Shown one piece after another: positions 14,054 through 36,987 of a stretch of DNA of 64,000 bases (the stretch's first letter is position 1; every line of letters begins with the position of its first letter). The notes beneath the pieces are model-generated. The model had not been told where the DNA came from. It worked only from the letters and a program-made list of their open reading frames with translations, and did no database searches. The translations under genes were made by a program, and so were the position numbers. Origin of the DNA: Nevskiaceae bacterium. GTDB taxonomy: Bacteria; Pseudomonadota; Gammaproteobacteria; Steroidobacterales; Steroidobacteraceae. The DNA lies in NCBI GenBank assembly GCA_018883185.1, contig VEQP01000011.1:1-64000 (forward strand). The letters are read 5' to 3'.

Positions 14054-15526
14054 ATGGCTCGGGCAATCGTCATCGGCAGCGGCTTCGGTGGGTTGGCAGC
14101 AGCGGCGCGTCTCGGCGCACGCGGCTACGAGGTCACGGTGCTGGAGAAACTCGATGCCCCGGGCGGTCGCGCCTATGTGTATCGGCAGGACGGCTACACC
14201 TTCGATGCCGGCCCGACGATCGTCACGGCGCCCTATCTATTCGAGGAGTTGTGGCAGGCTTGCGGTCGTCGGCTCGCCGACGATGTGACGTTGCGCGCCC
14301 TCGACCCGTTTTACGAAGTGCGCTTCGATGATGGTGACGTGTTCCGTTACACCGCTGACTTGGCCCTCATGCGCGAGCAGATCGCGCGCATCGAACCACG
14401 GGATGTGGCCGGTTTCGACAGGTTTCTCGAGGTCAGCAAGGAAATCTACCGCGTGGCGTTCATCGGCCAGGCCGAGCAACCGTTCCACGAACTCGGTGCC
14501 TTGTTCAAGGCAGCGCCGGATCTACTGCGTCTCGGCGGTTACCGCTCGGTCTACAGCGAGGTATCGCGTTATTTTCACAGCGATAAATTGCGCATCCTGT
14601 TCAGCTTCCATCCGCTGCTGATCGGTGGCAATCCGTTCACGACCACGGCGTATTACTGTTTGATCGCTCATCTCGAGCGCACGCATGGTGTGCACTACGC
14701 CGAGGGCGGTATGGGCGCGTTGGTCCGCGGCATCGTCGGTCTCATCGAGCGACAAGGAGGGCGCGTCCGCTGCAATGCGGAGGTCAGCGAGGTGCTGGTG
14801 GATCGAGGCCGGGCGAGAGGTGTGCGCCTCGTCGATGGCGAGGTGCTCGAAGCCGACATCGTCGTCTCCAATGCGGATGCCGCGTGGACCTACGGCAAAC
14901 TGCTAGCGCACCACCCGCGGCGTCGCTGGACTGATGCCAAGCTTGCGCGTGCGCGCTACTCGATGAGCCTGTTCGTCTGGTACTTCGGTACACACCGTCG
15001 CTACGACGACGTCTATCACCACACGATGGTGCTGGGCCCCCGTTACAAGCCGCTGCTCGACGATATCTTCAAGCGCAAGGTGCTCGCCGAAGATTTCAGT
15101 CTCTACCTGCATCGTCCGAGTGCCAGCGACAGCACGCTGGCGCCGCCGGGCTGCGATTCTTTCTACGTGCTCGCGCCGGTACCGCATTTGCAGAGCGGCA
15201 CGGATTGGCGCAGCCATGCCGAGCCCTACCGTGCCGCGGTGGAGTGCAGGCTGGAGGCCACGGTGCTGCCGGGTCTCAGCCAGTCGATCGCAACCTCGCA
15301 CATGCTCACGCCGCTGGATTTTCGCGATCGACTTTCTTCGGTGAACGGGGCGGCCTTCGCCATGGAACCGCAGCTGTTCCAGAGCGCGTGGTTTCGCCCG
15401 CACAATCGCAGCGAGGAGGTGGAGGGCTTGTATCTCGTGGGCGCGGGAACCCATCCGGGCGCAGGGCTGCCCGGTGTGCTGTCCTCCGCGCGTATCCTCG
15501 ACAAGATCGTGCCGTCGCCGCGCTGA
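14054..15526 (+). CDS. crtI: Phytoene desaturase CrtI
   Basis: 490-residue FAD-dependent desaturase converting phytoene stepwise to neurosporene/lycopene. Seen: N-terminal dinucleotide-binding GSGFGGLAAAARL (about 8-20), GGRAYVYRQDGYTFDAGPTI, the MG-LV-GI segment, and the C-terminal carotenoid-oxidoreductase signature GLYLVGAGTHPGAGLPGV. With crtB, crtC, crtD and crtF nearby it should feed the spirilloxanthin series. It is convergent with crtD, with a 47-bp gap. Confidence 0.95.
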   Translation: MARAIVIGSGFGGLAAAARLGARGYEVTVLEKLDAPGGRAYVYRQDGYTFDAGPTIVTAPYLFEELWQACGRRLADDVTLRALDPFYEVRFDDGDVFRYTADLALMREQIARIEPRDVAGFDRFLEVSKEIYRVAFIGQAEQPFHELGALFKAAPDLLRLGGYRSVYSEVSRYFHSDKLRILFSFHPLLIGGNPFTTTAYYCLIAHLERTHGVHYAEGGMGALVRGIVGLIERQGGRVRCNAEVSEVLVDRGRARGVRLVDGEVLEADIVVSNADAAWTYGKLLAHHPRRRWTDAKLARARYSMSLFVWYFGTHRRYDDVYHHTMVLGPRYKPLLDDIFKRKVLAEDFSLYLHRPSASDSTLAPPGCDSFYVLAPVPHLQSGTDWRSHAEPYRAAVECRLEATVLPGLSQSIATSHMLTPLDFRDRLSSVNGAAFAMEPQLFQSAWFRPHNRSEEVEGLYLVGAGTHPGAGLPGVLSSARILDKIVPSPR

Positions 15527-15573: not shown

Positions 15574-17064
15574 TCAGCTCGCGTCGGCGGCGAGTCGTGC
15601 GGCAGCGAGGCGCCCCGAGAGTGTCGCCATCGGGATCCCAGGCCCGGGATGCGCCGATCCACCCGCCAGATACAACCCCGCGATCGGGGTCTGCGAGGCG
15701 GGCTTCTCAAAACTCGCGAACGCCCCGTGGTTGGCGCGGCCGTAGAGGGCGCCCCCCGTGCAGGGAAACAAGCGCTCGAAGTCCTGCGGGCGTGTCACCA
15801 CCCCATCGCCAGGTCGGTAGTCGATCTGCAGATCGCAAGCTTGGAGCAACTCGAACACACGCTGTTCGAGCGTGGCAAGGCTCGCATCGTCGACACCGCC
15901 GCGATCGCCATCAGCCGGTGCGTTGACGAGCAGCAGCATGCGCTCGCGACCCTGTGGATCCGCTGTGACTTCCTTTGAATCGCTTCGATCCTGAGCGCAG
16001 AGATACACCGTGGGCTCCGCTGTAATGCGCCGATCGGCAAAAATTGCCGAGAACTCCCGCGGATAGTCGGCGGCAAAGAATACATTGTGGTGTTGCAGTT
16101 CGAATCCGCTGGTTCGAGCATGCAGACACCACGTCACGGCGGAGAGTCCCCGTTGCTGCGGCGCGATGACGCCAGTGGCGACGCGAACGTTATCGCCGAG
16201 TGCGCCGCTCGCCAACGCATTCGCGTCGCCATTGAACACCACGGCATCGGCATCAAGGATTTCGCCCGACTGCAACTCGACGCCGCTCGCGCGGCCGTTG
16301 CGAGTCAGTATGCGTTGAACGGGAGCGTCGTAACGGTAGACCACCCCCTGCGAGCGACCGAGATTCTCGAGTGCGCGGGCCACTTCGCGCATGCCGCCGC
16401 GCACTAGCCACACGCCGCTTTGCTCGACGTGGGCAATCAGCATCAGCGTAGCCGGTGCGGCAAGTGGCGAGGAGCCGACGTAGGTCGCATAGCGCCCAAA
16501 TAGCTGTCGCAGTCGCGGATCCCGGAAATGGGCGCCAAGCGCCTGCCACAGTGACTGCCACGGTGGCGTACTCCACATCGCGGCGAGGCCTCGTGCGCCG
16601 AGCCGCCCGACGAGTTGCGCGGGCGAGGGTCGCGCCACCATCATGAAACTGTCGCGCAGGGTTGCGTATACCCGGGCACTGCGCTGGCAGAGTTCTAGAT
16701 AGCCTTGAGCCTCGCGCTCGCCGGCGAACTCGCGAATGGCAGCGGCGGAGCGCTGCACGTCGGCGTGCAGATCAAGCACGCCGCCCGAACGCCAGGCATG
16801 CCGCGCGAGGATGCCCGCTCGTTCCAGCTGCAGATGATCTTCGAAACGTTGTCCGCAATCGCGGAACAACTCCGCGAACACCTCGTGCATCGTGAACACG
16901 GTGGGTCCTGCATCGATCGCTTGTCCGTCGACATCGACGCTGCGCAGCTTGCCGCCCGGGCCGGATGCACGTTCGAGGACGGTGACGCTTCGACCTTGAC
17001 GGGCGAGATCCGCAGCAGCGGCCAGGCCACCCATACCAGCACCGACGACGATAACGCGACGCAC
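15574..17064 (-). CDS. crtD: Methoxyneurosporene/hydroxyneurosporene desaturase CrtD
   Basis: 496 residues, CrtI-family FAD desaturase with VVGAGMGGLAAAADL at the N-terminus, GPGGKLRSV, DAGPTVFTM, and the C-terminal GLYLAGGSAHPGPGIPMATLSGR. The ending is that of C-3,4 desaturases (CrtD) rather than CrtI, and a separate crtI is present, so CrtD is preferred. It introduces the 3,4 double bond in 1-hydroxy carotenoids of the spirilloxanthin pathway. Start taken as GTG 17064, directly before the FAD fold. Confidence 0.9.
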   Translation of the reverse strand: MRRVIVVGAGMGGLAAAADLARQGRSVTVLERASGPGGKLRSVDVDGQAIDAGPTVFTMHEVFAELFRDCGQRFEDHLQLERAGILARHAWRSGGVLDLHADVQRSAAAIREFAGEREAQGYLELCQRSARVYATLRDSFMMVARPSPAQLVGRLGARGLAAMWSTPPWQSLWQALGAHFRDPRLRQLFGRYATYVGSSPLAAPATLMLIAHVEQSGVWLVRGGMREVARALENLGRSQGVVYRYDAPVQRILTRNGRASGVELQSGEILDADAVVFNGDANALASGALGDNVRVATGVIAPQQRGLSAVTWCLHARTSGFELQHHNVFFAADYPREFSAIFADRRITAEPTVYLCAQDRSDSKEVTADPQGRERMLLLVNAPADGDRGGVDDASLATLEQRVFELLQACDLQIDYRPGDGVVTRPQDFERLFPCTGGALYGRANHGAFASFEKPASQTPIAGLYLAGGSAHPGPGIPMATLSGRLAAARLAADAS

Positions 17065-17072
17065 GACCCGCT

Positions 17073-17795
17073 TCAGCCGCGCGCCGGTGTCCGGCGACCG
17101 ACGCTGGCCTGATGGTAGAGGATGAGACCGAGACCCACGACCAGAGGGATCGCCCAAAGGCCGGGGTGCAAGGCCAGAGCCGGTACGGTGCGTACGGCGC
17201 CGAAAGCGAAGAAGGCCGTGTACACGGAAATACCGGCGCCAACCAGGGCCTTGATGTGCTCGCGCAACCAGTCGAGCGGGCGACGCTGCGGCTTATAGAG
17301 AAACCAAAGATTGGTGGCGACGGTGGCAAGCCCGATGGCCGGCATGCCGAGCATCAGCGGCAAGTCGGCACGCCAGGACTGGTAGGCGCAGTGGATGGAG
17401 GCGATGAACAGAGCGCCTTGCAGCGCGAGGTTGCGCCACTCGAGATTCGCCTCGTGTCGCTCGCGGTTTTGCACGCAGAGCCAGCCGTACCACGCGAGGT
17501 TCAGCGTAAGAATCGCTAGACCCTGCATCATCCAGCCGAAGATGCCGCGGATCCACACAGGGTTGGTCAGATGTGGGTGCGTGCCGAGCGGGTCGAGCAG
17601 CGTGCAGGCGCTGATGCCGACAGCGGCCGTGCCTGTCAGCAGCATGCAGACGCTGAATACACGACCCCATTTGCGATGCTGCACGCCACCCTTCAGGCCG
17701 AGTATCGGCACCCAAAACGCGACGAGGCCCACGCTGCCGAACAGGATGTGCAGCACGACGAAGGATTTGAAGAAAACCGGAATCAACGAGTCCAT
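17073..17795 (-). CDS. DUF2306-like multi-span membrane protein
   Basis: 240 residues from ATG 17795 with about seven TM helices: about 8-30, 43-63, 82-103, 120-138, 145-163, 180-200, 208-228. The N-terminal pattern G-x3-FW-x-P-x3-KGG-x2-H-x3-G resembles DUF2306 proteins; conserved His residues (LHILFG, VQHRKWG, GTHPH) could bind haem or metal (inference). It precedes crtD by 8 nt on the same strand, so it shares the carotenoid transcript. No function known to me. Confidence 0.7.
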   Translation of the reverse strand: MDSLIPVFFKSFVVLHILFGSVGLVAFWVPILGLKGGVQHRKWGRVFSVCMLLTGTAAVGISACTLLDPLGTHPHLTNPVWIRGIFGWMMQGLAILTLNLAWYGWLCVQNRERHEANLEWRNLALQGALFIASIHCAYQSWRADLPLMLGMPAIGLATVATNLWFLYKPQRRPLDWLREHIKALVGAGISVYTAFFAFGAVRTVPALALHPGLWAIPLVVGLGLILYHQASVGRRTPARG

Positions 17796-17815
17796 GAGGT
17801 GGTGATGCTGCGCTG

Positions 17816-17829
17816 CAGGCGTGCGCCTG
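17816..17829. repeat. Palindrome in the P450 upstream region
   Basis: CAGGCG-TG-CGCCTG is a perfect 6-bp inverted repeat in the 84-bp gap between the DUF2306-like gene and the divergent P450 gene. A second near-palindrome (AAGGCCGCGGCCCTT, 17832-17846) follows directly. Both could be operator sites for this divergent promoter region. No TGT-N12-ACA site is present. Confidence 0.35.
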
Positions 17830-17879
17830 TAAAGGCCGCGGCCCTTCACGTCAGCCTCGGTGCGCGTTAGGGTAAGACC

Positions 17880-19271
17880 ATGAGCTCGTTGTACGTTCCC
17901 CCGCGGCCGCAGCCCTTGGCTGCGCTGGTGTCCTTGCTGCGGGTGATGGCGCAAGGCGACGGCGATCTGCTCAGTCTGCTGCCGGCCAAGGCCTATCGCG
18001 TGAAGACAGGTTGGCTCGGTTATTCGCGTCGCTCGATCCTCATCGTCAATGAACCCGAGCTGCTGCGCGACATACTCACCGACCCCACTGACATCTACCC
18101 GAAGAACGATTTGATGGTCGGCGCGCTGGAGCCGCTCGTCGGTAATTCGATTTTCGTTTCGAGTGGCGCTGTGTGGCGCCGGCAAAGGCAGATGATCGAT
18201 CCGGCCTTTTCGCACATGCGGCTCAATAAGGCGTTCGTATCGATGTCGGCGGCGGTCGATGATTACGAGCGCCGGCTAGATGAGTCGGCCGAGCGCGGTG
18301 AGTCGTTTTCGCTCGATCTGGCGATGAGTCATCTGACGGCAGATATCATTTGCCGTACCGTGTTCTCTACCTCGCTGAAGTCGCAGACGGCGGTCGACGT
18401 GTTCGAGGCTTTTACGGTGTTCGAGCGCACCTGTGCACAGGTCGAGTTGAAACGGCTGATCTTCGATGCGCCCTTCGCGGCGATTCCGCAGCATCCACAG
18501 GTCCTCGAGGCTTGCGAGCAGATCAGGCGACACCTTGGCGATCTCGTCGATACGCATCTCGGTGCCAATGAGGCGCAGTACGACGACATTGCAGCCGAGG
18601 TGATCGCCGCACGCGACGTACAGAGCGGCGAGGGCTTTACGCGCAAGGAACTGCTTGATCAGCTCGGCGTGATGTTCCTGGCAGGGCACGAGACGACGGC
18701 GAGCGCGCTGATCTGGGCTTTCATGATTCTCGCGCTGAATCCGCCGGCGATGGCCCGTATTCGAGCCGAAGTGGCCGAGATCGCAGGCGATGGTCCGATC
18801 AGCCTGGAGCAGGTGCGACGTATGAGTTACGTGCGCAATGTCTTTCGCGAGGCGTTGCGACTCTATCCGCCGATCACCTTCATTCCGCGGGTGGCGGCGG
18901 AGGCCGCGACCATCGGGCCGCATCGGGTCAAGCGCGGTGCCATGCTCATGATCGCGCCGTGGTGCATACACCGACACCGCGACTATTGGAAAAACCCGCA
19001 CGCCTTCGACCCTGATCGCTTCAGCGCCGAGCGGGAACACGAACTCGTGCCGGGTGCTTATCTGCCTTTCGGCCTCGGACCGCGAGTTTGTGTGGGCGCG
19101 GGCTTCGCTCAACTTGAGGCCAGTCTGATCCTTGCTCGCCTCTGTCGTCGCTACGACTTCATGATGCAGGATGCACATAAGGTGCGCCCGGTAGCGCGCC
19201 TGACGACACGTCCTGCGCAGCAGTTGATGTGTCGGGTGGCGCATCGTTCAGATGGCGCCGCTGCGGGATGA
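17880..19271 (+). CDS. Cytochrome P450 within the carotenoid cluster
   Basis: 463-residue soluble-type P450. Seen: the I-helix oxygen-activation motif AGHETT (residues 268-273), ExxR as EALR (324-327), a PERF-like DPDRFSAE, and the haem-thiolate loop PFGLGPRVCVGAGF with Cys404. It lacks a clear N-terminal membrane anchor. It resembles broad bacterial CYPs that hydroxylate fatty acids, terpenoids or carotenoids. It opens a same-strand run P450 - ATP-grasp - crtB with gaps under 40 bp, so a carotenoid or related isoprenoid substrate is a fair inference. P450s are not part of standard spirilloxanthin synthesis. A putidaredoxin-type ferredoxin lies at 51969. Confidence 0.93.
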   Translation: MSSLYVPPRPQPLAALVSLLRVMAQGDGDLLSLLPAKAYRVKTGWLGYSRRSILIVNEPELLRDILTDPTDIYPKNDLMVGALEPLVGNSIFVSSGAVWRRQRQMIDPAFSHMRLNKAFVSMSAAVDDYERRLDESAERGESFSLDLAMSHLTADIICRTVFSTSLKSQTAVDVFEAFTVFERTCAQVELKRLIFDAPFAAIPQHPQVLEACEQIRRHLGDLVDTHLGANEAQYDDIAAEVIAARDVQSGEGFTRKELLDQLGVMFLAGHETTASALIWAFMILALNPPAMARIRAEVAEIAGDGPISLEQVRRMSYVRNVFREALRLYPPITFIPRVAAEAATIGPHRVKRGAMLMIAPWCIHRHRDYWKNPHAFDPDRFSAEREHELVPGAYLPFGLGPRVCVGAGFAQLEASLILARLCRRYDFMMQDAHKVRPVARLTTRPAQQLMCRVAHRSDGAAAG

Positions 19272-19309
19272 GCGCGACACCATGATTGTCCTGCGATGAG
19301 CGTCCTGCC

Positions 19310-20491
19310 GTGAGCGAGACTGTGCTGCTGACCTTGGGCCGCTTGCCCAAGGCGCTGGAAATCGCGCGTGCTTTGGCGGCTGCGGGTTGCCGGGTCGTCG
19401 TCGCCGAACCATTCAAACGCCATCTGACCGGTGCCTCGCGGGCGGTGGCGCGCAGCGTCGTGGTCCACTCGCCGGTCGACGATCACGAGCGCTACCTCAC
19501 CGATATGCAGCGCGTCATCGAGGAGGAGGGAGTTGGGCTCGTGGTACCGGTCTCGGAGGAAATCCTCTTTGCGGCCGCGCTGCGCGATCGATTGCCGGAT
19601 AGCGTGCGGGTGTTTTCCATGCCGTTCGCAACGCTGCGCGCACTGCACGACAAGTATTCATTCATCGGCGTGTGCGCCGCAGCGGGCGTGGCGGCACCGC
19701 AAACCCGTGCGCTCGACTCGCCGGACGCGCAGGCTTTGGCGGATGCGTGTCCTACCGTGGTCAAACCGGTGGCCTCCTGCTCCGGTCGCGGCGTGCAATT
19801 TCTAGAGCGCGGGGCGCGCTTGCCGAGTGTCACGGAGCCCTGCATCGTGCAGGAGTTTTGCGCCGGACAGCTGCTGAGCACCTTCTCGGTGGCGCGTCAC
19901 GGCCAGGTGCTGCTCACGGTCACCTACCGTGGTGCCGTGATGCAGGGCACTGTGGCGGTGTGCTTCGAGCGCATCGATACGCCGCCGCCCGTCGCGCAGT
20001 GGGTCGAACGTTTCGTAGGCCACTGCGGCTTCGACGGTTTCATTTCCTTCGATCTCGTGCAGCAGGCAGAGGGTCTGGTGCATGGCATCGAGTGCAATCC
20101 GCGGGCGACTAGCGGTATCCACTTCGTAGACCCCGAGGGCTTGGCCACGGCCATCCTGCACCCTGAGCAGCCATCGACGCTGCGCTATCGCGAGGAGCGT
20201 TTGCTACAGCAGTTTTATCCTTGTCTCACCGAGACGCAGAAGTCGATGTTCACCGAGCGTTTCGCGCACAATTTTCGCTGTCTACGTCGCGCCCGCGATG
20301 TGACCTGGTCGCTGAGTGACCCGTGGCCGTGGCTCAGTATGCCGTTGAGCTCTTGGACGATCATCGAGCAGGCGCTGCGTCGGGGTTGCACCTTCGGCGA
20401 GGTGGCCATGCTCGACATGGCCTGGACTGGCGGGCCATTGCGCGAGGGCCAGCCGCGAGTTGCCGCGGCGCAAACCCCTGACGTAAAGTGA
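19310..20491 (+). CDS. ATP-grasp ligase within the carotenoid cluster
   Basis: About 393 residues from GTG 19310 (TTG 19286 possible). Layout: an N-terminal pre-ATP-grasp Rossmann-like domain (VLLTLGRLPKALEIARAL and later VPVSEE), an ATP-binding subdomain with VVKPVASCSGRGVQFL (Lys and Gly-rich loop) and IVQEFCAG, then the Mg/ATP site FISFDLV and IECNPRATSGIHF (ExNPR). The C-terminal 90 residues carry no known domain. ATP-grasp enzymes join a carboxylate, through an acyl-phosphate, to an amine, thiol or hydroxyl. It is 38 nt after the P450 and 27 nt before crtB, so a joint tailoring function is suspected; the substrate is unknown. Confidence 0.82.
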   Translation: MSETVLLTLGRLPKALEIARALAAAGCRVVVAEPFKRHLTGASRAVARSVVVHSPVDDHERYLTDMQRVIEEEGVGLVVPVSEEILFAAALRDRLPDSVRVFSMPFATLRALHDKYSFIGVCAAAGVAAPQTRALDSPDAQALADACPTVVKPVASCSGRGVQFLERGARLPSVTEPCIVQEFCAGQLLSTFSVARHGQVLLTVTYRGAVMQGTVAVCFERIDTPPPVAQWVERFVGHCGFDGFISFDLVQQAEGLVHGIECNPRATSGIHFVDPEGLATAILHPEQPSTLRYREERLLQQFYPCLTETQKSMFTERFAHNFRCLRRARDVTWSLSDPWPWLSMPLSSWTIIEQALRRGCTFGEVAMLDMAWTGGPLREGQPRVAAAQTPDVK

Positions 20492-20518: not shown

Positions 20519-21586
20519 ATGTTGGGTGATGGTGGCATGGCACCGGGCCTTGCGACGCGGGCGGATCTCGAGGCCTGCCGAGAGGCCATTCGTGTCGGCT
20601 CGCGGACCTTCCACGCGGCTTCTTTTTTGTTGCCCATCCGTGTACGTGAGCCGGCGCTGTCCTTGTATGCCTTTTGTCGTGAAGCGGATGACGCCATCGA
20701 CACCGCGAGTGATCCCGCACCGGCACTGGTGGCGCTGACGAACCGCCTGCAGCGTGCCTATCGCGGTGAACCCATCGACAATGCGGCTGATCGTGCTCTC
20801 GCCGATGTCGTCGCCCGTTTTCATATTCCGATCGACATCCCGGCCGCGTTGCTTGAAGGCTTTGCCTGGGACGCGGAGGGGCGCCGCTACGAGGAGCTGT
20901 CCGATTTGTGCGCTTACGCCACGCGCGTGGCGGGCACGGTGGGCGTGATGATGTCGCTGCTGATGGGTGTGCGTGCGCCGCATGCCTTGGCGCGCGCGGC
21001 GGATCTGGGCATTGGCATGCAACTGTCCAACATAGCGCGCGATGTCGGTGAGGATGCGCGTATGGGACGCATCTACTTGCCATTACGCTGGCTGCGCGCG
21101 GCGGATATCGATCCGCTGCTCTGGTTGCAGCGTCCCGACTTTGATCCGCGACTCGGACGCCTGGTCGATCGGCTGGTGGCGGAGGCGGAGCAGTTGTATA
21201 CCCGTGCGGCGAGCGGCGTCGCGGAGTTGCCCGTCGAGTGTCGCCCGGCCATTCATGCTGCGCGGCTGATGTATGCGCAGATCGGTCGCGAGGTGCAGCG
21301 TCACGGCGGCGATTCGATCAGTTCGCGTGCGGTTGTTTCGGCGCGCCGAAAACTATTTTTGCTGTTGCAGGCCATCACAGTGTCGAGTCATGGCGGTCCG
21401 CCGCTTGATGCGGGGCCGGCCTTGCCGGAGGCTGCCTTTTTGGTCGACGCTGTGCTCCGGCACGATCGGCAACACGGCGTGGTGGCGACTCATGTTGGCG
21501 AGAGCCTGCTGACTCGCGAGTTTTCTCTTGCCCTGCGAGCCTTCGAGCGACTCGAACGCATGGACCAGCGCAGCGGAACGGTCTAG
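20519..21586 (+). CDS. crtB: Phytoene synthase CrtB
   Basis: 355 residues. Condenses two GGPP to phytoene. Seen: first Asp-rich motif READDAID, YCYxVAGTVG-like YATRVAGTVG, and the second motif NIARDVGEDARMGRIYLP. Slightly longer at the C-terminus than typical CrtB (about 300-340). Its stop overlaps the convergent crtC stop by 4 nt. Confidence 0.95.
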   Translation: MLGDGGMAPGLATRADLEACREAIRVGSRTFHAASFLLPIRVREPALSLYAFCREADDAIDTASDPAPALVALTNRLQRAYRGEPIDNAADRALADVVARFHIPIDIPAALLEGFAWDAEGRRYEELSDLCAYATRVAGTVGVMMSLLMGVRAPHALARAADLGIGMQLSNIARDVGEDARMGRIYLPLRWLRAADIDPLLWLQRPDFDPRLGRLVDRLVAEAEQLYTRAASGVAELPVECRPAIHAARLMYAQIGREVQRHGGDSISSRAVVSARRKLFLLLQAITVSSHGGPPLDAGPALPEAAFLVDAVLRHDRQHGVVATHVGESLLTREFSLALRAFERLERMDQRSGTV

Positions 21587-22563
21587 GCGCCTCGCTGCAG
21601 GGGGCGACGCGGTAGGCGCACGGGCAGCAGCGTCTGCACCCAGCGTGACGCGAAGCGATCAAGCGACACGCTCTCGTGAAAGGCGCGCATCGGCTGCCCG
21701 TCCACCGTGGTATCGACCAGCGAACGGGCATAAAACGGTCCGTTCTCTAGCGTCTTGTAGATCGAGGCCTGCGCCCCCGCATCGCAGCGCGTGGTGCGCT
21801 CGATCCCCCAAGGGGTGCAGGGCAGCGTCTGCAGTGGCGGTGGATCGCAGTGGTGCACGCCACGCCCATCGAATCGTAGTGCGAGTGATTTGCCACCGCC
21901 GCCACGCCATGCGGTGTCGTAATAGACGCGGGCGTGATCGTCGAGGGCTGCGCGCGACCAGTTCCAACTGTGGAAGTCGTCCTCGAGTGGGCGCGCCCCT
22001 TGATTGGCATCGAAGTACGCATGACCTTGCCACTGCAGGCGAGGGCGGCTGAACTCGACCTCAATGCGCGCCTGCGGTGCGATCGGATACCAGCGATGTG
22101 CGCCGTCGCGGTCGATGACGTGGTCGATGCCGATCAAGGCCTCAGGGATCAACCGCAGTCGGCCTTGCAGGCGCGTTGGCCATGGTGAGGTGATTTCATT
22201 GATTTCGGCATGCAGCGCGGTGCCATCCCAGTGCAGGCTGCTGCGACCGATGGTCAACTGACCGTTGCTGCGGACAAGATCGGCAGCGCCCCTTTCGGTC
22301 AGCGCCCAACGATGTCCTGCTGCGCCATAGAGGGCGAGATTGAGCGCCGAGTGCTCGAGCGGGTTGATCTGCCGCCGACCGCCCGCCCGCGCCCAAGCGT
22401 ACCAGGGCGAGAACACGCAACCGAGCATGGCGATCATCGTCAGACCGTGACGGCCGCAGTCGCTGAGCGCGTCCACGTACCACCACGCGTAGCCGTTGGT
22501 CGGCAGGCTCGCGGCGAAATCCGGGCCGGTTTGACTCGCTACAGGGTGATGTCTATATTGCAT
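21583..22563 (-). CDS. crtC: Hydroxyneurosporene synthase (1,2-hydratase) CrtC
   Basis: 326 residues. Adds water across the C-1,2 double bond of acyclic carotenoids. Recognised from NGYAWWYVDALSDCGRHGLTMIAMLG, FSPWYAWAR, WYPIAPQARIEVEF, FHSWNWSRA and the RTTRCDAG segment, all CrtC-typical. ATG 22563 is chosen although the frame stays open upstream, because the conserved family N-terminus begins soon after and the divergent crtE promoter region starts there. A TGT-N12-ACA PpsR site overlaps its start codon. Confidence 0.92.
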   Translation of the reverse strand: MQYRHHPVASQTGPDFAASLPTNGYAWWYVDALSDCGRHGLTMIAMLGCVFSPWYAWARAGGRRQINPLEHSALNLALYGAAGHRWALTERGAADLVRSNGQLTIGRSSLHWDGTALHAEINEITSPWPTRLQGRLRLIPEALIGIDHVIDRDGAHRWYPIAPQARIEVEFSRPRLQWQGHAYFDANQGARPLEDDFHSWNWSRAALDDHARVYYDTAWRGGGGKSLALRFDGRGVHHCDPPPLQTLPCTPWGIERTTRCDAGAQASIYKTLENGPFYARSLVDTTVDGQPMRAFHESVSLDRFASRWVQTLLPVRLPRRPLQRGA

Positions 22564-22616: not shown

Positions 22617-23486
22617 ATGGAAAGCACCTCCGCGATCGAGCAGGCTCTCGAGGTCGCCGTGGCGTCCTGCGATACGCTGGGTTGCCCGCCGCGCCTCGCT
22701 GCCGCGATCCGCTATGCGGTATTCCCGGGTGGAGCGCGAATCCGCCCCCGACTTTGTCTGGCCATCGCCGCAGGTTGCGGTGAGCCACACTCACCGCTCG
22801 CGGAGGCAACCGCCGCTTCGATCGAATTGCTGCACTGCGCTTCGCTGGTGCATGACGATTTGCCCTGTTTCGACGATGCCGCGTTGCGGCGCAATCGGCC
22901 ATCGGTGCATCGCGCATTCGATGAGCGGATCGCGCTGCTCGTCGGCGATGCGCTGATCGTGCTCGCGTTTCAAAACGTCGCCCGCGCATTTTCGAGTGCA
23001 GCACCGCGGCTACCCGGCATCGTATTGGCGTTGGGTCGTGCGGCCGGCGCTCCGGGCGGCATCGTCGCGGGTCAGGCCTGGGAGTGCGAGGCCGCGACTC
23101 CGCTTGAGGAATATCGCCGCTTGAAAACGGGTGCGCTGTTCGTCGCGGCGACCGTGGGTGGGGCCTTGTCGGCTGGTGCAGACCCTACGCCGTGGCGGGC
23201 ACTCGGTGAGCGCTTGGGCGAGGCGTATCAATTGGCTGACGATGTGCGCGATGCGCTCGGCACCGACGAGGAGCTTGGCAAACCCGCCCATCGCGACGCG
23301 GATCTCGGTCGTCCGACCGCAGTCGCCGAGCTTGGGTTGCAAGGCAGCGTGCAACGATTCGATGCCTTGATGGCCGAGGCCGTCGAGTCGATCCCGCAGT
23401 GTCCGGGTGCTGAATTCCTGCGTGATCTCGTCGAACTCGAGGCGCAACGCCTCCTGCCCTCGAGCCTGTTGCAGCGCGCTGCCTGA
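22617..23486 (+). CDS. crtE: Geranylgeranyl diphosphate synthase CrtE
   Basis: 289-residue trans-prenyltransferase with the first Asp-rich motif DDLPCFDD (DDx4D) at about residues 80-86 and the second, DDVRD, near residue 203. It supplies GGPP for phytoene and for the bacteriochlorophyll tail. First gene of the crtEF-bchCXYZ-puf superoperon order. ATG 22617 lies 53 bp from the crtC start. Confidence 0.94.
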   Translation: MESTSAIEQALEVAVASCDTLGCPPRLAAAIRYAVFPGGARIRPRLCLAIAAGCGEPHSPLAEATAASIELLHCASLVHDDLPCFDDAALRRNRPSVHRAFDERIALLVGDALIVLAFQNVARAFSSAAPRLPGIVLALGRAAGAPGGIVAGQAWECEAATPLEEYRRLKTGALFVAATVGGALSAGADPTPWRALGERLGEAYQLADDVRDALGTDEELGKPAHRDADLGRPTAVAELGLQGSVQRFDALMAEAVESIPQCPGAEFLRDLVELEAQRLLPSSLLQRAA

Positions 23487-23513: not shown

Positions 23514-24662
23514 ATGCTCGGCAAGCGTTCCTGGCGCGATTGGCGCAATCAATGGGTCATGAACCCGCGCTTCCAGCGCTGGGCCGCTGCCTTTCCCTTG
23601 ACCCGTTCTATCGCACGCTTCGAGGCGCGGGCGATGTTCGATGTCGTCGCCGGCTTCGTGTACTCGCAGCTCGTGCTGGCCTGCCTGCGGCTCGGTTTAC
23701 TTGAGCGCTTGCGTTCGGGTGCCGTGACCGAGGCCGTGTTACAGGCGGAGATTGATTTACCCCCAGCGGCGTTGCGCACTTTGCTGCGGGCTGCCGCGGC
23801 CCTGGAAGTGCTCGAGGTGCGTGAGCCGGGGGATGCGATCAATCGCGAGTCGCCGGATCCTGCGCGCAGTTGGGGCTTGGGGCTGCGAGGCGCCGCATTG
23901 CTCGGCAACCCAGGTGTGCTGGCGATGATCGAACACCACGCGATGCTGTACGCGGATCTTGTCGATCCGCTCGCTATGTTTGCAGCACCACGTGGCTCTA
24001 CCGCGTTGGCGCGGTACTGGCCTTATGCCGCGGCGGATTCGCCTGCGGTCGTCGCGCATGACTCGACCCGTGCCTACACCCGCTTGATGTCCGCGTCGCA
24101 ACAGCTGGTCGCCGGCGAAATTCTCGATGCTTACGACGTGCGGGAGCACCGCTGCGTGCTCGACGTCGGCGGTGGCGACGGCACGTTCCTGCGTGCCGTT
24201 GCGGCGCGCGCACCCGCGGCGCAGCTGATGCTCTTCGATCTTCCAGGTGTCGCCGACCAGGCGCAGGCGGCGTTTGCCGCGGCCGGGCTCGCCACGCGAT
24301 GTCGGGTGGTGCCGGGCGATTTCAGTCGAGACTCGCTGCCTCGTGGTGCGGATCTCATCACTTTCGTTCGAGTGTTGCACGACCACGACGATCCGCGCGT
24401 CGAGCGGATGCTGCGTATGGCCTATGAGGCCTTGCCGCCGGGCGGGCGGCTGGTGGTCGCCGAACCCATGGCGGGTACGGCGGGCGCGGCGCGCATGGGC
24501 GATGCGTATTTCGGCGTCTATCTCTGGGCAATGGGTTCGGGGCGACCGCGCACCATCGCCGAACTAACCGAAATGCTCAGCGCGGCAGGGTTCAGCCGCG
24601 TTCGTCGCCGACCCACGCGCATACCGTTGCAGACCAGCGTGCTCGTCGCCGAGCGGAAGTGA
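23514..24662 (+). CDS. crtF: Hydroxyneurosporene O-methyltransferase CrtF
   Basis: 382 residues. SAM-dependent methylation of the 1-hydroxy group of acyclic carotenoids. Seen: the basic N-terminal region (NQWVMNPRFQRWAAAFPLTR), a dimerisation domain, SAM site VLDVGGGDGTFL (about 220-231), HDHDDPR and AEPMAG. With crtC and crtD it completes the spirilloxanthin branch. 27 bp after crtE. Confidence 0.93.
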   Translation: MLGKRSWRDWRNQWVMNPRFQRWAAAFPLTRSIARFEARAMFDVVAGFVYSQLVLACLRLGLLERLRSGAVTEAVLQAEIDLPPAALRTLLRAAAALEVLEVREPGDAINRESPDPARSWGLGLRGAALLGNPGVLAMIEHHAMLYADLVDPLAMFAAPRGSTALARYWPYAAADSPAVVAHDSTRAYTRLMSASQQLVAGEILDAYDVREHRCVLDVGGGDGTFLRAVAARAPAAQLMLFDLPGVADQAQAAFAAAGLATRCRVVPGDFSRDSLPRGADLITFVRVLHDHDDPRVERMLRMAYEALPPGGRLVVAEPMAGTAGAARMGDAYFGVYLWAMGSGRPRTIAELTEMLSAAGFSRVRRRPTRIPLQTSVLVAERK

Positions 24663-32162: not shown

Positions 32163-33346
32163 ATCACTTTGGACGCATCGTGCTGGCGGGTATCGCCAGC
32201 CTCGGACTGCTCGTCGGTTGCGGCGAGCGACCGCCCATCGAGACGCAGCAGTTGGGTTATCGCGGCACCGGGATGGAAGAGAACACCAACCCGCGCCTGC
32301 TGGCCGAACTCGTTGCGAAAAATCAGGTTCCGGCATCGCAACCGCCGGCTGATACGAGCGGCCCGTTGGCCTCGGAGATCTACCAAAACGTGCAGGTGCT
32401 CAAGGACCTCAGTGTCGGCGAGTTCACGCGCGTGATGTTGTCGATGACCGAGTGGGTGGCTCCGGCGGAGCAGAAAAACTGCACTTACTGTCACAACGGC
32501 GAGAACTACGCCGATGAAGGTAAGTACCAGTACAAGGTCGCACGTCGCATGCTGAGCATGACTCGTGAGATCAACAGCTCCTGGAAAACGCATGTCGGCA
32601 AGACGGGTGTGACCTGTCATACCTGTCATCGCGGACAGCCGGTGCCGGAGTACGTGTGGTTCACCGATCCGGGTGCGGGTCGGGAGAACTCGTTCGTCGG
32701 TTCGCGCGCGGGTCAAAACTCGGCGATCACGGGGCTTGGTGTGACGACCATCGGTCACTCGAGCCTGCCGTACGACCCGTACACCCCGTTCTTGCTCGGC
32801 GAGCAGAACATCCGCGTCAACGGCCCGACGGCACTGCCAACCGGCAATCGCAATTCGATCAAGCAGGCGGAGTGGACCTACGCGTTGATGGTGCACATGT
32901 CGAACTCACTCGGCGTGAATTGCACCTACTGTCACAACACGCGCGCCTGGGCGAGCTGGGAGGAAAGCCGACCGCAGCGCAGTACTGCGTGGCACGGCAT
33001 CCGCCTCGCCCGTCACTTGAACAACGCCTACCTCGTGCCGCTGACCGACACGTTCCCGGATAAACGTCTCGGCCCCTTGGGCGATGTGGCGAAGATCAAT
33101 TGCAGCACCTGCCACCAGGGCGTGTACAAGCCGTACTTCGGCACGAGCATGGCCAAGGATTATCCGGAACTGCAGGGCGCCAAGCCGATGCCGGTCGCTG
33201 CGCCGATGGAAGGTGCTGCGGCACCTGCAGCGGGTGATGCCGCGGCTGCTCCGGCCACAGCGCCCGCGGCGGCACCGGCTTCGGCGAAGAACCTGACCGC
33301 CACGCCCGTGGCACGGGTGAACGTCGTCGGGAGGCCGATCGGCTGA
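32159..33346 (+). CDS. pufC: Tetrahaem cytochrome c subunit of the reaction centre, PufC
   Basis: 395 residues. Lipoprotein signal with lipobox LLVGC (Cys about 21) anchors it to the outer face of the inner membrane. Four haem-binding motifs are visible: CTYCH, CHTCH, CTYCH, CSTCH. It re-reduces the photo-oxidised special pair. The last about 50 residues are an Ala/Pro-rich tail absent from compact homologues. The stop overlaps ispH by 1 nt (TGATG). Confidence 0.96.
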
Positions 33347-34275
33347 TGAACGTGTTGCTCGCCCAACCGCGCGGATTCTGCGCCGGTGTGGCGCGAGCAA
33401 TCGAGATCGCCGAGCGGGCTTTGGAGACGCACGGCGCACCGGTCTACGTGTACCACGAGATCGTCCACAACGGACACGTTGTGGGCGATCTCGCTTCACG
33501 TGGCGCGATCTTCGTCGATGACATCGCCGAGATTCCGGAGGGCTCGCTGACCATCTTCAGCGCACACGGCGTCTCTAATGCCGTGGTCGAGCAGGCCGCG
33601 CGACGTCGTCTGCACGTTATCGACGCGACCTGTCCGCTCGTGACCAAGGTTCACGTGCAGGCAGAGCGCTACTCGCAACGCGGCCACGTCATCGTCGTCA
33701 TCGGTCATGCCGGTCACGAGGAAGTCGAGGGGACGCGCGGCTCGGTCAGCGGGCCAGTTCACGTGGTCGGGTCGTTGGAAGACATCGCAGCCTTGCCGAT
33801 GTTGCCCGGTACGCCCGTCGCCTACGTGACGCAGACTACTTTATCCCTCGATGACACTCGGGTGTTGATCGAAGCGCTCGAACGGCGTTATCCGGATATC
33901 GTTGGGCCGGGCCTCGAAGACATCTGCTACGCGACGCAGAATCGCCAGCGCGCCGTGCGGCAGATGGCTCGACAGGTTGATCTCGTGATCGTTGTGGGCG
34001 CTCGCAACAGCTCCAACGCCAATCGGCTGCAAGAGGTCTCCGCCGATCACGGCGTGCCCGCGCGTCTGGTGGAGCATGCCGACGAAATCGAAGCGGTATG
34101 GCTGGCCGGCGTGCGTAACGTGGGTGTGACCGCGGGTGCCTCGACGCCGGAGATTCTCGTTAGCGGTGTTTGCGAACGCCTGCGTCATTTAGGGGCCGGT
34201 TTGATCCGCGAATTGCCGGGTCTCGCTGAGACCACGCGCTTTCGGCTACCCGAAATCCTGCGCCGCGCCGGTTAA
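33346..34275 (+). CDS. ispH: 4-hydroxy-3-methylbut-2-enyl diphosphate reductase IspH
   Basis: 309 residues. Last enzyme of the MEP pathway, producing IPP and DMAPP. The three [Fe-S] cysteines are at 12, 96 and 194 (E. coli: 12, 96, 197). His in HEIVHNGHVV and SAHGVS, and the TQTTLS segment, complete the site. It is the last gene of the puf operon, translationally coupled to pufC, a setting that ties isoprenoid supply to reaction-centre expression. Confidence 0.96.
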   Translation: MNVLLAQPRGFCAGVARAIEIAERALETHGAPVYVYHEIVHNGHVVGDLASRGAIFVDDIAEIPEGSLTIFSAHGVSNAVVEQAARRRLHVIDATCPLVTKVHVQAERYSQRGHVIVVIGHAGHEEVEGTRGSVSGPVHVVGSLEDIAALPMLPGTPVAYVTQTTLSLDDTRVLIEALERRYPDIVGPGLEDICYATQNRQRAVRQMARQVDLVIVVGARNSSNANRLQEVSADHGVPARLVEHADEIEAVWLAGVRNVGVTAGASTPEILVSGVCERLRHLGAGLIRELPGLAETTRFRLPEILRRAG

Positions 34276-34300
34276 CGGTCTCGCGCCGCCTCGCGGGAAC

Positions 34301-36205
34301 TCAGCCCTTCAGTTGGCTGCGCGTCAGCAGCCGCAATACACCATTGAACATGGCGTTCTGACGCAGACCCGGCGCACGCCTCGGCGCTTGCCGCGCCAGG
34401 GTGATCCGACTGCTGTGGCGGGCGATGGCATCGAACAGGCCTGGCACGTCGAGGCCCGCATCCTGCAGGCATTGTTCGCGGGTGCCGTGTTCGATGTTTC
34501 GATCAGGTAAGCCGAGGTGCAGCACGCCGACATCGAGTGCATGGCGGGCGAGCACCTCGCCGACCGCAGCGCCCGCGCCACCGGCGATCACGTTCTCCTC
34601 GAGCGTCACTAGTAGTTCATGCTGAGAAGCGAGTTCGAGCACCAGCGCCTCGTCCAGTGGTTTGACGAAGCGCATGTTGACGACGGTCGCATCGATGATG
34701 TCTGCGAGCTCGTGCGCGGTCTCAAGCAAGGTGCCAAACGCCAGCAGGGCGATGCCCGAGCCGCGGCGTTGCAGCTCGGCGCGGCCGAGCGGCAGACTGC
34801 GTGGCCAGAGTGGCAGGGCAGCGCCTTCCTCGGTGGGCAGCGCGGGTGCCACACGGGCGCCGCCACCGATCGCCGCGGCGCGCGGATACCGGATGGCGCA
34901 AGGCAGACCCGATTCGATGCCGGTACGCAGCATCGCACGCAGCTCATCGGCATCGCCCGGCGTCATTACCGTCATGCCGGGGATACAGCGCAGGAAGGAC
35001 AGATCAAGGCTGCCATTGTGTGTGGAACCATCGGGGCCGACGAGTCCGGCACGATCGACAGCGAAAGTCACCGGCAAGTTTTGCAGGCAGACGTCGTGCA
35101 CGATCTGATCATAGGCGCGTTGCATGAACGTCGAGTAGATCGCGACCACGGGACGCAAGCCTTGGGTTGCGAGTCCGGCCGCGAAGGTCACCGCATGTTG
35201 CTCGGCGATGCCGACATCGAAATAGCGATCCGGGTAAGCCTTGGCGAAAGCGACGAGGCCCGAGCCTTCGCGCATCGCCGGGGTCACCACCACAATCCGC
35301 GGATCCTGGGCCGCGAGTTCGCACAACCACTCGCCGAAGATTTGCGTGTAGGTCGGCGCGGCAGGCTTGGCGGGCGGTAAACCCAGAGAGGGGTCGAAGG
35401 GCGTGACACCGTGATATTTGATCGGCTCGGCCTCCGCACGCGCGTAGCCTTTGCCTTTCACGGTCCGCACATGCAGTAATTTCGGGCCCGGACGATCGCG
35501 CATTGCGCGCAGTTCGTGCAGCAGCGCCGCCATGTCGTGTCCATCGATGGCGCCGCGATAAGCAAAACCGAGTGCGTTGAAAAAACCATCTACGTCACTG
35601 ACCGCATCGCGCCCCCGGCGAGTCAGGTAGGCCGACAGGGCACCGACGTTCTCCGAGATGGACATGCCGTTGTCGTTGAGTATGACGAGCACGTCCTCGT
35701 CAAGTGCGCCCGCGTGCTCCAAGGCCTCGAAAGCGAGACCTGCCGTCATCGAGCCATCGCCGATGATGGCGACGGCTTTGGCTGGACTACCTTGTCGGCG
35801 AGCAGCGACCGCCATACCGAGCGCGGCGCTGATCGAGGTGCTGGAGTGCCCGGCACCAAACGTGTCATAGGGACTCTCGTCGCGTTTGAGGAATCCGGAG
35901 ATGCCGGGCCGCTTGCGAATTTGGGCGAGGGCCGTGCGGCGCCCGGTGAGGATCTTGTGCGGATAGCATTGATGGCCGACATCCCATACCAGTAGGTCGC
36001 GCGGCGTTTCGTAGACGTGATGCAGCGCAACGCTCAGTTCGACGGTGCCGAGGCCGGCGGCAAGATGCCCCCCGACTGCCGCGATGGTCTGCAACAGACA
36101 GTCGCGTAGCTCGTCAGCGAGTTGTGGCAACTGCGCATCGTCGAGACGGCGCAAGTCGGCCGGGGAGTCGATCTGCTCGAGGAGCGTGCGAGTGGGGGTG
36201 TTCAC
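34301..36205 (-). CDS. dxs: 1-deoxy-D-xylulose-5-phosphate synthase Dxs
   Basis: 634 residues. TPP-dependent first step of the MEP pathway (pyruvate + GAP to DXP). Seen: [18 protein letters not shown], the TPP motif GDGSMTAG...[14 protein letters not shown], and [17 protein letters not shown]. Start chosen as GTG 36205: it overlaps the puhE stop as GTGA and has AAGGAG 11 nt upstream. Last gene of bchF-lhaA-puhABCE-dxs. Convergent with ispH. Confidence 0.95.
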
Positions 36206-36987
36206 GGTCGGCTGGCTCCTTGTCGATTGGCGAGACTCCACCGCCAGAAGCGTTCGCTCTGTAGTGGCAGCACCATCAAGATGTGTTCGAGTACGGCGAG
36301 GGCGGCGAGGGTGGTGAGGATGCCGTAGGCCGCCCCGGCGAAGGCCGAGTCCGCCTGCAGGGCGTGGCTACCGAGCCACCAGACGATCAGGCCACCGAGT
36401 GCGATGGAGAAGGGGAACAGCAGGTTCATCCGCCGGTGCTGCATGTAGCGCAACAGATGAGCCAGATGTTGCGGCAGGAACGCTTCGCCCAAGTTGCGGA
36501 CGCCGAGGAACAAGTTGAGTTTAGCGCTGCTGCGCATCAGCCAGAGCAGCAGCAGCGTACCCAAGGCGAGCCGATTGTCGGCATCGATCGTCAGCGCAGC
36601 GATCAAAGCAACGACGCCGATGATCAACAGTTCATGCCAGAGAATGACGCGGATGGCCTCGATCGCATGACGCCAGCCATACCCGTTGGCCTTGGCGGAG
36701 GCTCGCGGTGTGAGACCGGTGATCCGACCGGTGAGAAAACTGACCTCGATGCCTGCCCAGATACCGATCGCTCCGAGAAAGGCGACCGCTGCGCCGGCAA
36801 CGCTCTGTAAATCACGCGAAACCAGCACGGCGGCGAGGGCGATGATGCTGAGAGCGAGGGTGCCGCGCAGCAGCGAGGGGTAGGTATCTACCGATCGACC
36901 GATCAGCCAAGCGATGATGCCGGTTGCACCCCACCACACCGCAACGGTGAGCAGGAGGGACCCACACAGCAGGGTCCAGTCGATCAT
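36202..36987 (-). CDS. puhE: Photosynthetic complex assembly protein 2, PuhE (DUF3623)
   Basis: 261 residues, about seven TM segments, with [20 protein letters not shown] and the [14 protein letters not shown] stretch typical of PuhE. In Rhodobacter it modulates BChl synthesis and RC-LH1 assembly. Coupled by 4-nt overlaps to puhC upstream and dxs downstream; acsF, which often lies next to it, is absent. Confidence 0.88.

Follow-up and report, generated by a model that had tools for sequence, protein, structure and literature searches.

Association of a cytochrome P450, an ATP-grasp ligase-like protein and a membrane protein with carotenoid genes of aerobic phototrophs

A trio of genes that is probably linked to the tailoring of carotenoids by aerobic phototrophs, as judged from sequence comparison, is found in the photosynthesis gene cluster of a Nevskiaceae bacterium (contig VEQP01000011.1, positions 1 to 64,000; this whole stretch of 64,000 nucleotides is hereafter called the window). 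The trio consists of a cytochrome P450 (463 aa; 17880..19271, plus strand; PF00067, E 4.6e-69), an ATP-grasp ligase-like protein (401 aa; 19286..20491, plus strand; PF02655, E 5.9e-08) and a 240-aa membrane protein distantly related to DUF2306 (17073..17795, minus strand), here termed MEM, which is conserved in the trio loci. The more specific reading, that the trio would carry out O2-dependent tailoring of an acyclic carotenoid as one module of aerobic anoxygenic phototrophs, is given a probability of roughly 0.55. The first-pass annotation of this DNA described the P450 and ATP-grasp genes as a pair and overlooked MEM. Its head-to-tail arrangement of the two genes holds, both open reading frames having family matches, as does the distance of 27 nt to crtB, the order being P450, ATP-grasp and crtB, all on the plus strand. 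The distance from the P450 gene to the ATP-grasp gene would be 14 nt if the latter starts with the TTG at 19286, whereas the 38 nt originally given requires a start at codon 9. MEM is divergent from the P450 gene and adjoins crtD, with which it possibly forms one operon.

The trio is conserved as a unit. Counts of neighbouring genes in 80 loci rest on the best 80 of 221 ligase relatives, obtained from a scan of 84,980 genomes with one genome per species. The P450 gene lies within 1.5 kb of the ligase gene in 78/80 loci, and the two misses both start less than 200 nt from the end of a contig. For MEM, a position no more than 6 kb from the ligase gene is found in 72/80 loci; in seven of the eight loci without MEM, the ligase is within 1.5 kb of the locus end. 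P450 relatives near an ATP-grasp gene share 54–96% identity with the window P450, and MEM shows 47–94% identity in 41 relatives. Hosts of the trio are distributed among Alpha-, Beta- and Gammaproteobacteria and Myxococcota, and the ligase relatives include those of Steroidobacteraceae, Methyloversatilis, Roseococcus, Rubritepida, Roseomonas, Novosphingobium, Sphingomonas, Hyphomonadaceae, a Rhizobiaceae group and Myxococcaceae/Archangium. No ligase relatives were found in viral contigs, and plasmids yielded at E ≤1e-60 only P450s of at most 37.5% identity (9 records). The three Myxococcota sequences form one group in the P450 tree (100/100). Three Myxococcota metagenome-assembled genomes (MAGs; L068, L071 and L111) carry the trio with crtD, and reaction-centre genes are present in their genomes. 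Order and orientation of the three genes vary among six arrangements (head-to-tail, convergent or divergent), and in two loci (L042 and L089) P450 and MEM are separated by crtI and crtD. Distance correlations over 29 loci kept after thinning are 0.83 for P450 and MEM, 0.74 for P450 and ATP-grasp and 0.67 for ATP-grasp and MEM; those between the trio and crtD are 0.55–0.65, those between the trio and crtI 0.32–0.46, and that between crtI and crtD 0.25, all of these values being raised by shared ancestry. No description of the trio was found in searches of one open-access library of papers.

Carotenoid (crt) genes are the usual neighbours of the trio. In a survey with 16 bch/puf/puh/ppsR queries, the closest identifiable gene apart from the trio itself was a crt gene in 73/80 loci, a bch/puf-type gene in 5 and neither in 2. 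Both kinds of gene were present in 39 loci, in 38 of which the crt gene was the nearer; 35 loci, some of them short, had crt genes only. In 19 loci measuring at least 15 kb, crt genes were present with no match to the 16 queries or to six additional ones, which came from a Novosphingobium cluster and bear names given according to their position (bchM, L, H, B, N and lhaA). A pair located mostly away from carotenoid genes, which the first-pass annotation had named as the outcome that would speak against a pigment role, is thus not what these loci contain. A crtD match is found within 400 nt of MEM in 54/80 loci. In nine Sphingomonadales loci, crtD, MEM, P450 and ligase stand beside a different crt set with another crtI and crtB; L092 and its cluster have a lycopene cyclase. 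Sphingomonadales loci with such a cyclase-type set are among the 19 long loci lacking bch/puf matches. This placement suggests more than one event in which trio and carotenoid genes came together. CrtC is present in 54/57 trio genomes, each match being below the curated cut-off.

The trio is also associated with phototrophy. Reaction-centre genes (PF00124) are found in 54 of 59 genomes from among those behind the ligase relatives, a count outside which the genome of L075 falls. The five misses comprise two MAGs (L098 and L107) and three genomes with a distant ATP-grasp protein and no P450 in their 19-kb loci (G229, G240 and G422), which were kept in this count and without which it becomes 54/56. 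In a table of 59 relatives, where the ligase was scored as present only at E 1e-49 or better and G012 (2e-11) and G026 (6e-8) were scored as lacking it, 21 genomes combine a strong match to the ligase with a reaction centre, one has the ligase only (a genome 77% complete), three have the reaction centre only and 34 have neither (Fisher p 7.9e-12, relatedness not corrected for); at E 0.001 the ligase tally is 25/60, the window's genome included. A draw of 397 genomes across the phylum contains 35 with reaction centres, namely the window's genome and 34 others, and the P450 is present at E ≤1e-100 in three genomes of this draw, all of which have reaction centres.

MEM and P450 are transcribed away from a common promoter region (17796..17879 in the window), and PpsR-type sites in its homologous counterparts support a pigment role linked to photosynthesis. 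The palindrome TGTN12ACA, the PpsR/CrtJ consensus, occurs in this region in 24/67 loci, compared with a mean of 2.0 and a maximum of 6 in 500 draws of same-length stretches from the same loci, and in 6/22 non-redundant loci, compared with 0.6 and a maximum of 4. All of the eleven Sphingomonadales loci with crtY or another crtI/crtB set carry it.

The P450 is a clear member of its family (PF00067, 233.8 bits vs cut-off 22.8). The Cys404 thiolate recognised by the first-pass annotation is invariant in 33 aligned P450s including that of the window, together with A268–T272 (AGHET) and E324/R327 (ExxR). Comparison of its profile with solved structures gives the plant carotenoid ring hydroxylase CYP97A3 (LUT5) as the best match, with 245 bits, the next molecule having 202. 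CYP97A3 thus has the top profile score, and its substrate is a carotenoid, as is proposed for the trio P450; it acts on rings, whereas the pathway genes of most trio hosts indicate acyclic ends. In all of the 12 phototrophs of family f238 examined (L163, L164, L165 and L167 among the loci), a P450 36–39% identical to that of the window is present; in L163 it sits after a DsbD-like gene and a 436-aa gene without assignment, and the neighbours of this nearest other P450 group provide no functional clue.

The ligase belongs to the ATP-grasp proteins by its PF02655 score (33.4 bits vs cut-off 23.2), its fold and its catalytic residues. E269, N271 and R273, which correspond to the ExNPR motif noted previously, are shared, along with K123, K160 and D256, by every one of 41 aligned proteins, that of the window included. 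A fold search with its AF2 model (pLDDT 91.9) yields 455 PDB matches at E ≤0.001, the best being PylC, PurK, biotin carboxylase and the L-amino acid ligase 3vot. The more specific family PRK06849 (NF005315) is matched with 241.6 bits, below its cut-off of 406. The trio ligase shares with PylC and L-amino acid ligases the fold (E 6e-16 for PylC) and the ATP-grasp catalytic residues, but identity is 18% and the trio ligase has extra conserved residues past the ATP-grasp domain. A second ATP-grasp paralogue, 48–49% identical to that of the window, has been found at L039:8891-10192 (G057) and L041:8912-10216 (G044); it is flanked on both sides by 199–233 aa proteins of one family, one of which was scanned with no Pfam match.

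MEM is modelled as seven long helices (pLDDT 90.7). His16, His73 and His180 are present in 78/78 sequences and His40 in 77/78. There is no Pfam match at 0.01, and 33/42 aligned members (window included) match DUF2306 (PF10067) weakly at E ≤1, the best at 6.5e-5. A fold search found no solved structure at E ≤0.001, and the sequence profile found nothing in the PDB at E ≤1. A DUF2306 protein, PraC, is described as required for epoxidation of a hydrophobic chain in pramanicin synthesis (PMC12895699). It is a membrane protein of a biosynthetic locus, from a family distantly related to MEM, with a role in oxidation. PraC differs in being fungal, with 393 aa and five predicted helices, from MEM with 240 aa and seven long helices, which is below the family cut-off, and the pra cluster as described in that source contains no P450 and no ATP-grasp gene. 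A MEM homologue of 39% identity at L141:9258-10001 in G778 comes directly after a pufC-like gene; this phototroph lacks matches to the ligase at 1e-10 and to the P450 at 1e-40. Distant homologues at L143:9705-10514 and L144:9763-10545 lie beside histidine kinase genes in genomes with no reaction-centre match, and the neighbours of the distant homologues (sensor kinases, a TPR protein, MFS) provide no functional clue. An apparent fusion of MEM with crtD in G835 was rejected because the coordinates put the two matches in different frames.

How the three proteins might act together can be outlined as follows. An acyclic carotenoid made by CrtI, CrtC, CrtD and CrtF would be the substrate, and O2 would be consumed. 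The P450 would act stepwise on a methyl or terminal group of this substrate, turning it into an alcohol, aldehyde or acid, and the DUF2306-like MEM would oxidise or present the membrane-embedded chain. The ATP-grasp protein would then activate the carboxylate as an acyl phosphate and link it with an amine, for instance an amino acid, leading to a polar carotenoid derivative. The coupling of a carotenoid carboxylate to an amine is put forward tentatively. More doubtful is the complete proposal, in which the P450 and the DUF2306-type protein would oxidise an acyclic carotenoid to a carotenoid acid and the ligase would couple this acid through an amide bond to an amino acid or amine, a conjugate class that would be regulated with photosynthesis and occur among aerobic phototrophs of two phyla. 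The pigment-tailoring role suggested by the first-pass annotation has gained a link to carotenoids and photosynthesis through co-variation and PpsR-type sites, and the substrate, the site of oxidation and the ligation are still matters of inference.

Comparable carotenoids and enzymes are on record. Gemmatoxanthin of Gemmatimonas phototrophica is an acyclic carotenoid with acid and aldehyde groups found in the light-harvesting antenna, and in the account given there its oxidases were unknown to the authors (PMC8342508). As an oxidised acyclic C40 carotenoid in the antenna of a phototroph, it resembles what is proposed for the trio. A C30 carotenedioate and its diglucosyl ester have been reported from Roseococcus thiosulfatophilus (PMC12654162), strain RB-3 of which carries the trio (L080). 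The genome of this species (G440) contains a separate pair of CrtI-family genes on another contig (contig 23, 36357-39388), which at a guess may be CrtN/CrtP-like, and for this reason the trio as a source of the C30 carotenedioate was set aside. Similar CrtI-family pairs are found in several other genomes among 60 that were tested for CrtD. Plain spirilloxanthin is stated to be the product of Elioraea tepida (PMC8781829). CrtA, the spheroidene 2-ketolase, tailors acyclic carotenoids with O2, as is proposed for the trio, and likewise has its gene in a photosynthesis cluster, and differs in that it is a single, non-P450 enzyme acting without a ligase.

Several observations weigh against carotenoid tailoring by the trio. 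In one locus (L036, G316) the trio stands alone, neither crt nor bch genes being matched in 19 kb; L065, L087, L101 and L104, three of which are recorded as Rhizobiaceae group, have bch neighbours and no crt neighbours, and L067 and L112 have neither. The lead of CYP97A3 is modest, CYP97C1 (184 bits) being level with CYP46A1 (187). The window MEM scores 16 bits against DUF2306 (E 0.014), below the gathering cut-off of 31.6. Of the 12 MEM matches in the phylum draw, five come from genomes with reaction centres and the other seven, which are weaker (55–126 bits), from genomes without them, so that the presence of MEM is not by itself specific for phototrophy. The MEM/P450 promoter of the window itself has no TGTN12ACA. 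The CrtI-family pair of G440 may account for the reported C30 carotenoids. The trio is found in only 2 of the 34 other phototrophs of the phylum draw. Since few of these phototrophs have it, and since CrtD exceeds its curated cut-off in 60/60 genomes tested, including 10 phototrophs without the trio, the trio is an addition and not a part of core spirilloxanthin synthesis; the absence from 32/34 is in line with the earlier statement that this synthesis needs neither a P450 nor a ligase.

Alternatively, the trio might modify another lipophilic cofactor of photosynthesis, such as bacteriochlorophyll, its tail or a quinone, and be near crt genes through the shared cluster. The tight association with reaction-centre genes, the bchP neighbours in L087, L101 and L104 and the MEM homologue right behind the pufC-like gene of G778 would fit this explanation, which is nevertheless considered unlikely, given the 19 long loci with crt genes and no bch/puf match and the nearer position of crt genes in nearly all loci with both kinds; bacteriochlorophyll a synthesis is not known to require a P450. 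Slightly less probable is that the trio makes a light-regulated metabolite of another kind, neither carotenoid nor cofactor (perhaps a photoprotectant, a membrane lipid or a signal), which would be wanted during pigment synthesis under oxygen. The PpsR-type sites, the solitary trio of L036 and the resemblance of the ligase fold to small-molecule ATP-grasp enzymes are consistent with such a product, but the trio stays with crtI and crtD in rearranged loci and co-varies more with crtD than with crtI.

A doubtful sub-case, which overlaps the carotenoid-tailoring reading, is that P450 and MEM tailor a carotenoid and the ATP-grasp protein makes a co-substrate or has another role. The ATP-grasp protein is the most divergent of the trio (45–55% identity in L060–L125, vs 54–70% for P450), and its paralogue in G044 and G057 is found with no P450 in the 19-kb locus; against this sub-case, the catalytic residues examined are invariant in the 41 sequences and the gene stays close to that of P450 in nearly all of the loci. 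Horizontal transfer of photosynthesis clusters as blocks has been stated for Gemmatimonas (PMC8342508), and in principle the trio might be hitch-hiking neighbours with no functional link to pigments; this is very improbable, as the trio has been kept together through six different arrangements and 34 of the 35 relatives without reaction-centre genes also lack the ligase.

The surroundings of the trio in the window contain the complete spirilloxanthin gene set crtI, B, E, C, D and F, as the first-pass annotation had reported, with crtE and crtF identified as crtE-like and crtF-like genes. Above their curated cut-offs are crtI (phytoene desaturase; 14054..15526, plus strand; TIGR02734, 607.6 bits, cut-off 238.1) and crtD (1-hydroxycarotenoid 3,4-desaturase; 15574..17055, minus strand; NF045637, 661 bits, cut-off 580). 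Clear matches that stay below equivalog cut-offs are crtB (phytoene synthase; 20519..21586, plus strand; PF00494, 2.2e-65; NF045921, 389 bits, cut-off 500), crtC (carotenoid 1,2-hydratase; 21583..22500, minus strand, start approximate; NF045922, 274 bits, cut-off 400, match 21601-22437) and the crtE-like prenyl diphosphate synthase (22617..23486, plus strand; PF00348, 4e-42; GGPPSynCrtE, 148.6 bits, cut-off 460). The crtF-like O-methyltransferase (23514..24662, plus strand) is assigned by Pfam only (PF00891, 3.1e-40). The window also contains pufL/M (PF00124), puhA, puhB, puhE, ppsR, bchG, bchP and bchO, and bchX/Y/Z-like genes recognised by Pfam only. Within the photosynthesis cluster, ispH and dxs of the isoprenoid precursor pathway are found at 33346-36241, with the puf genes on one side and puhE on the other.

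In aerobic anoxygenic phototrophs, the carotenoid pathway is usually deduced from crt genes alone. If O2-dependent tailoring of an acyclic carotenoid by the trio is the correct reading, the actual pigment in many of these bacteria would not be plain spirilloxanthin, and the trio would offer candidate enzymes for the oxidation of carotenoid methyl groups, as in gemmatoxanthin.

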